Below, in pieces: positions 24,483-25,135 of a DNA stretch of 64,000 nucleotides (positions within the stretch are counted from its first letter, which is position 1; each line of letters begins with the position of its first letter). The stretch is taken from NCBI GenBank assembly GCA_902792905.1, contig CADBBH010000003.1, positions 62,001 to 126,000 on the forward strand. The letters run 5' to 3'. The stretch is from Oscillospiraceae bacterium. GTDB lineage: Bacteria > Bacillota > Clostridia > Oscillospirales > Acutalibacteraceae. The position numbers and the translations under genes are program-made. The notes beneath the pieces were generated by a model. It had not been told where the DNA came from. It ran no database searches and saw only the letters and a program-made list of their open reading frames with translations.

Positions 24483-24511
24483 TTGACCGGATGAGTAATT
24501 TTGTTTATAAT
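24483..24511 (+). promoter_or_regulatory. Near-consensus promoter upstream of the DUF559 cassette
   Basis: TTGACC (24483-24488), 17 bases, TATAAT (24506-24511). Transcription would begin near 24518, outside the inverted repeat, and run through the left repeat before reaching the DUF559 gene about 157 bases later. Confidence 0.65.
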
Positions 24512-24563: not shown

Positions 24564-24630
24564 TGGCCCTCTCCGAGAACGGAGAGGGTGGCACGGCAAT
24601 AAGGATATAAGCCGTGACGGGTGTGGCGAT
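24564..24630 (+). repeat. Left compound inverted repeat of DUF559 cassette
   Basis: Outer block of 33 bases starting TGGCCCTCTCCGAGAACGGA and ending GGCACGG, a 15-base variable middle, then an inner block CCGTGACGGGTGTGGCGAT. The outer block folds by itself (CCCTCTCCG-AGAA-CGGAGAGGG). Both blocks recur exactly, inverted, at 25031-25095. Confidence 0.93.
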
Positions 24631-24674
24631 AAACAGAATTGTCAATCGACTGAAAGCCTTATGAGGACTGACGA

Positions 24675-25022
24675 ATGAATAATCTGACAAAAATGGCGCA
24701 GGCGCTTCGTAAGGAAGCGACGCCATGGGAAAACAAGCTCTGGTATGAGTTCCTGCGCGATTATGAGACACCGGTTCACAGGCAGATTGTCAAAGGCAGA
24801 TACATACTTGATTTCTATTGCAGCAAGGCTAAACTTGCGATTGAACTTGACGGCAGCGGCCATTATACCGATAAGCAGAGAATGCTTGATGCCGAAAGAA
24901 CCGCCGAGCTTAACAGAAAAGGCATCGAAGTTCTTCGCTTCAGCAATCTCGATGTTGATACAAATTTTTACGGAGTGTGCACGGAAATTGATACGAGAAT
25001 AAAAGAAAGAATCAAATCGTAA
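24675..25022 (+). CDS. DUF559 / Vsr-like endonuclease-domain protein
   Basis: A 115-residue single-domain protein of the DUF559 family, related to very-short-patch-repair (Vsr) and other PD-(D/E)XK nucleases. The N-terminal helix has the hallmark KEATPWENKLWYEFLRD; the core has VHRQIVKGRYILDFYC and then LAIELDGSGHY, in which the Asp of ILDF and the E-x-D of IELDG are the expected metal-binding residues, followed by D-A-ERTAELNRKGIEVLRFSN. GAGG lies 9 bases before the ATG. It is the only gene inside the inverted-repeat cassette. Its biochemical role is not established for the family. Confidence 0.88.
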   Translation: MNNLTKMAQALRKEATPWENKLWYEFLRDYETPVHRQIVKGRYILDFYCSKAKLAIELDGSGHYTDKQRMLDAERTAELNRKGIEVLRFSNLDVDTNFYGVCTEIDTRIKERIKS

Positions 25023-25030
25023 TTCTCCGT

Positions 25031-25095
25031 ATCGCCACACCCGTCACGGGTTGCTTCGCAACACCGTGCCACCCTCTCCGTTCTCGGAGAGGGCC
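25031..25095 (-). repeat. Right compound inverted repeat of DUF559 cassette
   Basis: Reverse complement of the left end: ATCGCCACACCCGTCACGG (inner block), a small TTGC-TTC-GCAA stem in the variable middle, then CCGTGCCACCCTCTCCGTTC and on to GAGAGGGCCA. It begins eight bases after the DUF559 stop. Confidence 0.93.
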
Positions 25096-25116
25096 ACAAA
25101 AGGTTTTTGTTGATTA

Positions 25117-25135
25117 TATATGCTCTGCGTATCCT
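25117..25135. repeat. Fragment of interspersed repeat A
   Basis: TATATGCTCTGCGTATCCT resembles the start of repeat A (TTTATGCTCCGCATATCCT) with a few changes. It lies just outside the right end of the DUF559 cassette and 33 bases before lacZ. Confidence 0.5.

Follow-up and report, generated by a model that had tools for sequence, protein, structure and literature searches.

REP, BIME and REPIN sequences are short palindromic repeats which occur alone and as inverted pairs, and which go with RAYTs, enzymes of the HUH Y1 type. PIT elements, another kind of dispersed bacterial repeat, were reportedly treated in papers by Hoyne and Maher. The TMECO motif, considered here together with PIT, occurs 3610 times in 262 proteobacterial genomes; its single-stranded form makes a stable triplex in vitro by CD and NMR, and DMS footprinting in E. 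coli cells did not support one (PMC4666352). REPs of the CGTC type have been reported without a dedicated transposase (PMC3733652). For DUF559 proteins, one gene has previously been assigned to the EDxHD homing-endonuclease family, E. coli YcjD has been placed in the PD-(D/E)XK superfamily with Vsr as a relative, and the authors who described a Caulobacter DUF559 protein favour a mismatch-repair nuclease. Our literature search, outside which all bioRxiv preprints and most subscription papers lay, found nothing linking DUF559 to triplex, inverted or palindromic repeats.

The window analysed here is a stretch of 64,000 nucleotides, positions 62001-126000 of contig C3 in a 2.07-Mb draft genome which is 84% complete. 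Its gene order includes rhaA, rhaD, a 5S rRNA gene, the unit described below and then lacZ. This unit looks like an undescribed type of mobile DNA and has the following features:

24564-25096, + strand: whole unit, one DUF559 gene inside two inverted triplex-type elements
24564-24631, + strand: left element, 68 nt (85 bits with structure model R1), with a putative triplex motif at 24567-24626 matching the arm-tail code at 8/8 positions
24567-24588, 24592-24616 and 24619-24626: hairpin 1, hairpin 2 and G-rich tail of the left element
24675-25022, + strand: DUF559 nuclease coding sequence, 115 aa (PF04480, E = 3.2e-25)
25030-25096, - strand: right element, inverted, 67 nt (78.8 bits with R1), with a putative triplex motif at 25035-25093 matching the code at 8/8 positions
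25072-25093, 25045-25068 and 25035-25042: hairpin 1, hairpin 2 and tail of the right element
25097-25134, + strand: outer module with palindrome-like TATGCTCTGCGTATCC (compared by eye)
24483-24511, + strand: promoter-like TTGACC-17-TATAAT upstream of the unit

The outermost arms of the unit (24564-24596 and 25064-25096) are 33 nt long, 100% complementary and spaced by 467 nt, and a further inner pair of 32 nt matches at 88%. A first-pass annotation of this DNA had described the two ends as exact in two blocks. Its 33-nt block and differing middle (15 against 14 nt) were correct, while the last block is 20 nt rather than 19 and the unit ends at 25096 rather than 25095. It had rightly named the DUF559 gene as the only one inside and, as it also stated, no transposase was found within the unit and no target duplication was visible at it. 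Apart from the two ends, the best match of model R1 (built partly from both window copies) in the window scored 18.8 bits and overlapped the left end. The outer module is similar by eye to sequence beside a second unit on contig C7 and beside several solo elements, and is possibly part of the mobile unit, which would, to judge from the sequence, sit within the 5' leader of lacZ.

Each element consists of hairpin 1, with a pyrimidine arm and a purine arm, a variable hairpin 2 and a G-rich tail. In the window, hairpin 1 is CCCTCTCC-GAGAAC-GGAGAGGG, followed by TGG, hairpin 2, AC, the tail GGGTGTGG and CGATA; hairpin 2 reads CACGGC..GCCGTG in the left element and CACGG-TGTTGC-GAA-GCAAC-CCGTG in the right. 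When folded as single-stranded DNA the left and right elements reached -19.7 and -21.8 kcal/mol (z = -6.2 and -5.9) and none of 200 shuffles was as stable. Among 21 elements of family A, the family counted with R1, all 8 pairs of hairpin 1 were invariant and hairpin 2 kept 91.5% of its cells paired despite sequence change. Over the whole structure 96.7% of cells were paired (87.8% shuffled), 20 cells were changed on both sides (6.4 ± 1.9 shuffled) and the covariation score was 0.169 (0.047 shuffled), values which none of 500 shuffles reached; two of the five covariation measures were not above the shuffles (3 vs 3.3 for pairs with both members changed and 5 vs 6.6 for additional pair types), and the shortest hairpin-2 forms are imperfectly aligned in this set. 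The "free middle" of the first-pass annotation thus belongs to a stem-loop that changes its sequence and retains its pairing. Recent duplication of a single locus is disfavoured because hairpin 1 is fixed and hairpin 2 changes with its pairing kept. By eye, similar hairpin-2 modules (CACGGC..GCCGTG and others) are combined with different hairpin-1 families, as if exchanged (loci L001-L044, e.g. L041 and L044). Additional repeats, TATGCTCCGCATATCC and GTAGGGGCGGATATCATCCGCCC, adjoin the solo elements of the source genome (L005-L013).

T is tolerated opposite C-G in a purine-motif triplex. We found that the tail mirrors the purine arm when the two are read by an antiparallel triplex code, with G over G, A or T over A and T over C; the published antiparallel purine-motif rules have G opposite G-C and A or T opposite A-T (PMC4666352). 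Detecting elements by hairpin 1, TG and hairpin 2 alone, with the tail unconstrained, gave 153 elements in loci L078-L157 with 121 distinct arm/tail pairs. The mean best match of these pairs was 7.49/8, with 81 perfect and 112 at 7/8 or above, against a permuted mean of 5.92 (maximum 6.15) and 6.40 for mirror identity, although it should be noted that the code was formulated from and then tested on the same loci, with no held-out set. A tail that repeats the arm directly and pairs with the 5' arm fitted less well (5.43/8), and this reading was rejected. In 117 of the 121 pairs, arm A faced A (n = 183), T (n = 76) and C (n = 4), arm C faced T (n = 56) and A (n = 3), and arm G faced G (n = 575), A (n = 34), C (n = 2) and T (n = 1); the register was taken from the G/non-G pattern, so the absence of G opposite arm A and C is partly built in, which the split between A, T and C is not. 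For 28 distinct purine-rich arms the mean was 7.36/8 (maximum of 2000 permutations 6.14), with 6.22 under identity and 6.35 under a decoy code. All but one of the 21 family-A elements matched the code at 8/8 and the remaining one at 7/8. The triplex motif occurred twice in the 64-kb window, at the two ends of the unit and each time at 8/8, and not at all in 20 mononucleotide-shuffled windows. The code also accounts for two end types in Clostridia, arm ..GG with tail CGG.. and arm ..GC with tail CTG..; left-flank arms ended in G, C and A in 24, 9 and 1 cases and right-flank arms in 12, 16 and 2 (G vs C, P = 0.02). Taken as a reading of sequence, the element architecture and its code are well supported.

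In a 59-sequence alignment of the DUF559 protein, D46, E57, D59, H63 and R75 were invariant and D72 was conserved in at least 90%. The protein was modelled with AlphaFold2 (pLDDT 92.7, pTM 0.85). The closest solved structure was 3hrl, a gonococcal endonuclease-like protein (sequence E = 3.8e-21), and the homing endonuclease I-Bth0305I (3r3p) matched both by sequence (E = 0.0029) and by fold (E = 9.3e-05, TM 0.69). The other 12 of 14 sequence matches to solved structures were chance-like (E ≥ 0.14), and Vsr (1cw0) gave a weak fold match (E = 0.19, TM 0.58).

We also examined the flanks of DUF559 genes elsewhere, using the best 80 of 569 relatives found by protein alone; 79 were used after one with a short flank (L079) was dropped. 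Gut and rumen assemblies of Clostridia supplied most of these relatives, and there were isolated examples such as Bifidobacterium biavatii and a Ktedonobacteria genome. An inverted flank score of at least 14 was found at 51 of the 79 standalone loci, 28 being below this threshold, and at 3 of 787 control intervals from the same loci. Within the genus set, 18 of 31 DUF559 loci had inverted flanks reaching this score, the 95th percentile of mismatched pairs being 23.75, a value raised by element families which the loci share. DUF559 homologs thus do carry such flanks, the lack of which in relatives would have counted against the first-pass annotation. Own left and right ends had a mean similarity of 18.7, compared with 10.5 to the ends of other loci (permuted maximum 12.75), and at 31 loci the own right flank ranked among the best 5 of 79. 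Strict elements at the 79 loci pointed inward in 33 and 29 cases and outward in 11 and 14, and 11 loci had one at each flank; among the controls such elements occurred in 11 of 1438 window-strands. Similarity of the flanks in direct orientation was also frequent (28/79 at 14 or above, mean 25.5), and some DUF559 loci lie within tandem arrays of elements. At L026 the gene lies between direct repeats of whole elements, a layout which suggests insertion into, or amplification of, existing elements. Nuclease identity was correlated with arm identity (Mantel r = 0.48, n = 50), a correlation which shared ancestry of the gene and its flanks could produce. The source genome has three DUF559 genes, in the window unit, at C7:141377 and at C9:16452 (flank scores 43, 34 and 22); the second has elements of the same family as the window unit and the third lies between elements of another family.

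The 8/8 triplex motif was present within 300 nt of 56 of the 79 DUF559 loci and in 7 of 574 control windows. Outside Clostridia it was found at 12 of 19 hand-chosen loci and in 4 of 75 control windows; among the 54 plasmid-collection records with a match, 17 supplied 18 of these loci, the other locus is from an E. coli chromosome, and the set includes two E. coli and three Sinorhizobium loci. The association of element and nuclease thus reaches beyond the lineage of the window, and this, the triplex code at the ends and the second hairpin in the middle are what the first-pass annotation had missed. The seven loci at which the motif was missed were both E. coli loci, for which the test's demand for a perfect arm applies, and those of Synechocystis, Novosphingobium, Picosynechococcus, Geobacillus and Aliivibrio. 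Both ends of the Novosphingobium locus are nevertheless built in the same way, as GGGAGGTGGCA-hairpin-TGACGGAGGGG (score 48.5). The palindrome flanking the S. meliloti gene is dispersed: the query matched at 441 places in 139 plasmid records, and 20 of 25 among the matches listed covered only its repeat part (7-8%). Two Sinorhizobium records (K101 and C101) compared as a candidate polymorphic site showed no difference. DUF559 domains elsewhere in the phylum also occur in long open reading frames, many above 1000 aa (L053-L077), and none of 28 phylum-survey loci (L050-L077), many of them in such frames, had the 8/8 motif, this being a loose control which is not lineage-matched. One phage record (L286) had a flank score of 15 without an 8/8 motif, and another (L287) a score of 28 with outward elements, by eye, and its sole 8/8 motif about 1.4 kb away.

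Our main reading, to which we give a probability of about 0.6, is that this is a selfish unit whose nuclease recognises triplex-forming ends while the host's repair does the joining. It would be a minimal selfish element, an EDxHD/Vsr-type DUF559 nuclease between inverted ends, each of which could, as a single strand, form an intramolecular antiparallel purine-motif triplex, with hairpin 1 giving the duplex, hairpin 2 the variable connecting loop and the tail the third strand. The end would fold when single-stranded or supercoiled, the nuclease made by the unit would recognise the fold and cut at or beside it, and host repair, not the enzyme, would join or copy the broken DNA elsewhere. Such repair would account for solo elements, for spreading that leaves no target duplication and for contents lost with one hairpin left behind. 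We infer that the triplex forms and is the shape recognised, that the nuclease cuts it and that this cutting drives the spread.

The repeats are dispersed, where the first-pass annotation had allowed that they might be confined to the unit: the 68-nt query had 16 matches in its own genome, the last few weak, and R1 found 13 copies there and 53 in another genome of the genus (G044). Of 45 genus genomes searched, own included, 25 had a DUF559 match. The seven with a family-A nuclease (67-100% identity; in G041 the gene is split over two frames) had 13, 23, 14, 14, 20, 7 and 53 family-A elements (median 14), and the 38 without it had a median of 0 (Mann-Whitney P = 1e-5, Fisher P = 2.6e-6); R1 comprises 21 sequences, 11 from the source genome and 10 from five other family-A genomes, and its filters drop weak matches, so that these counts lean towards nuclease-bearing genomes. 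Elements without a detected subfamily-A gene were present in G023 (n = 19), G029 (n = 7), G040 (n = 7) and G017 (n = 6), the first three of which are drafts that are 76-87% complete. A second element family, defined by one hairpin pattern, matched in 23 of the 45 genomes, and we claim no association of this family with a nuclease clade. Many elements form inverted pairs without a nuclease gene. One genome (G042) has, in both orientations, an inverted pair of about 300 bp with tails outward, hairpins inward and inner sequence similar by eye (L239, L240, L245 and L246), a possible non-autonomous family beside the nuclease.

A query of E. coli ycjD with its downstream repeats was covered to at least 80% in 3365 of 5426 E. 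coli genomes. In 60 records taken at regular intervals from 5393, the median number of additional places resembling parts of the query was 24 where ycjD was present (n = 37) and 7 where it was absent (n = 23; P = 2e-9). In 445 of the records searched the counts are lower bounds. The records are not independent and come from few lineages, since ycjD is reported to mark phylogroups A, B1 and C as well as ST69 and ST182, and one O157:H7 genome lacking the gene (H160) had 19 such places. TMECO has been counted 29 times in strain 55989 and once in IHE3034 (PMC4666352), numbers which might fit a link to ycjD. TMECO lay beside ycjD at one of two E. coli loci examined: strain KE47 has two exact matches to the pattern downstream of the gene in opposite orientation (1840-1874 and 2046-2080 of locus L178), and at the locus of strain 18AR0366, where the stretch is degenerate, there was none. 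Strains without ycjD did not serve as a clean empty site, both of those read carrying other genes there.

The unit's presence or absence between close relatives is well supported, and the empty sites which the first-pass annotation had proposed to look for do exist. All three outcomes which it had named as refuting were checked, and none of them refuted its candidate mobile unit. One relative (G029) lacks the unit and has rhaD, the 5S gene and lacZ, the last two separated by a short spacer (flank identity 95-97%), a second (G023) has the 5S gene and lacZ, likewise without it (80-86%), and in a third (G043) the unit is present. As the spacer itself differs, the insertion here is not a clean one. 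The second unit (C7:141377) is absent from G043, in which flanks of 98-99% identity lack about 640 bp; its site is also empty in G029 (91-96%), and both flanks lie close together in many further genus genomes among those listed. The C7 insert extends roughly 100 and 40 bp past the elements, so the true ends are not fixed, and at this one clean site comparison with the empty site gave no clear target duplication. The solo element at C7:10373 was rejected as a presence/absence site, since G043 and G029 also carry an element at this position.

The best-placed alternative, though an unlikely one, is that DUF559 is a passenger and that the elements are spread in trans by a RAYT-like Y1 transposase or another enzyme. 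In favour of this, an inverted pair of the window unit's own element family encloses a gene of a different type in the source genome (C3:183454-184355, in L008:1501-2402), namely a T5orf172 gene of the GIY-YIG type (T5orf172 match above its cut-off, DUF4357 below), and homologs of that gene in G007 and G037 lack such flanks, so the contents of a unit can vary. T5orf172 was rejected as a second general partner, as only 1 of 3 close homologs has the flanks; two further T5orf172 matches (L284 and L285) are weak. At the C3 site one hairpin 1 stands without the gene in G043, and hairpin and gene are both missing in G029; loss to one hairpin and ragged junctions without duplication would be expected of a cutting enzyme combined with host repair. 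Against a passenger, DUF559 recurs with different element families, the arm going with the nuclease, and the number of elements follows the nuclease subfamily. The Y1 transposase domain (PF01797) was found once in G041 and not in the other six family-A nuclease genomes (the source genome, 84% complete, and G007, G039, G042, G043 and G044), a point weakened by several of these being incomplete drafts; a RAYT in trans is disfavoured for the high-copy genomes except G041.

Somewhat less probable still is a resident repair, control or defence nuclease acting on triplex-forming repeats, the units then persisting through mutual regulation of the nuclease and its flanking sites. The Vsr-like fold and weak, partial matches to two defence models (mREase_II, E = 1.1e-5; DpdF, E = 2.2e-5) point this way, as does the reported tie between TMECO loci and genome instability in E. 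coli, the mechanism of which is described as unclear (PMC4666352). However, trimming of repeats by such a nuclease predicts fewer elements where it is present, the opposite of what we found, and orthologous sites differ by the presence of whole units. It is highly improbable that a small accessory gene simply has ordinary transcription terminators or RNA structures round it: the G+C-rich hairpins on both sides of a short gene would fit, but no T-run follows them, the tail obeys the triplex code, inward orientation dominates with controls nearly empty, and an earlier investigation cited in PMC4666352 reported the E. coli motif to have neither promoter nor terminator activity.

If the reading as a selfish unit is correct, a nuclease-only, structure-addressed selfish element would stand beside REP/RAYT systems and homing introns. 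More tentatively, at a little short of even odds, the unit may represent a class of mobile DNA addressed by DNA shape, in which DUF559 reads its own ends through an arm-tail code with T opposite C-G. On this view intrastrand triplex repeats, across the range from gut Clostridia to the TMECO/PIT elements of E. coli, and perhaps CGTC REPs as well, would have their missing origin in the DUF559 family. Linking DUF559 to triplex repeats gives both a testable role. The arm-tail code is a covariation across many arm sequences and suggests natural selection on a DNA triplex, something which is difficult to address by laboratory work.

Among the known systems, EDxHD homing endonucleases (I-Bth0305I, a mobile-intron enzyme) and Vsr have the fold of the enzyme, the match to Vsr being weak; E57, D59, H63 and D72 are conserved in DUF559. 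The enzyme differs from the homing endonucleases in being free-standing, at 115 aa and without added DNA-binding modules; no intron or intein was seen, and triplex-type ends flank the gene. The dispersed copies with inverted ends and the empty sites found here recall insertion sequences and MITEs.

Compared by eye and description, family A in reverse reads CGTC-stem-GCCA, close to the CGTC-stem-CCA of CGTC REPs, and that report names S. meliloti, C. crescentus and Neisseria, all of which have DUF559 genes (PMC3733652). CGTC REPs are described there, as far as the available text goes, as single stems with no triplex tail, and although CGTC and CCA stand around hairpin 2, its stem does not start with AT, by eye, unlike the 8-9 bp stem of CGTC REPs.

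The elements resemble TMECO and PIT in their pyrimidine arm, purine arm and G-rich third strand, their intergenic and dispersed placement, and inverted pairs with two loop types (PMC4666352). In MG1655 type A and type B TMECO loops are combined in 5 of 5 inverted repeats (PMC4666352), which recalls the left and right end types of the Clostridia units. They differ in that no enzyme or mobile element is tied to TMECO, "DUF" and "endonuclease" being absent from the available text, and in that T opposite C is not among the triplets named there; the TMECO search was limited to loops of 1-6 nt, which leaves out the hairpin-2 form (PMC4666352).

REP/BIME/REPIN sequences and RAYTs, with which the first-pass annotation had drawn a parallel, are similar in having short palindromic repeats, alone and as inverted pairs, a nuclease gene within inverted copies, and a repeat family which goes with an enzyme family. 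The enzyme of the window unit is of the PD-(D/E)XK/EDxHD-like type and not HUH Y1, GTAG, which stands at the foot of REP palindromes, or its complement occurs in 0 of 21 family-A elements, and the elements have a triplex tail in a unit which is itself present or absent between close relatives; the parallel holds in the sense that the unit works like a REP/RAYT system.
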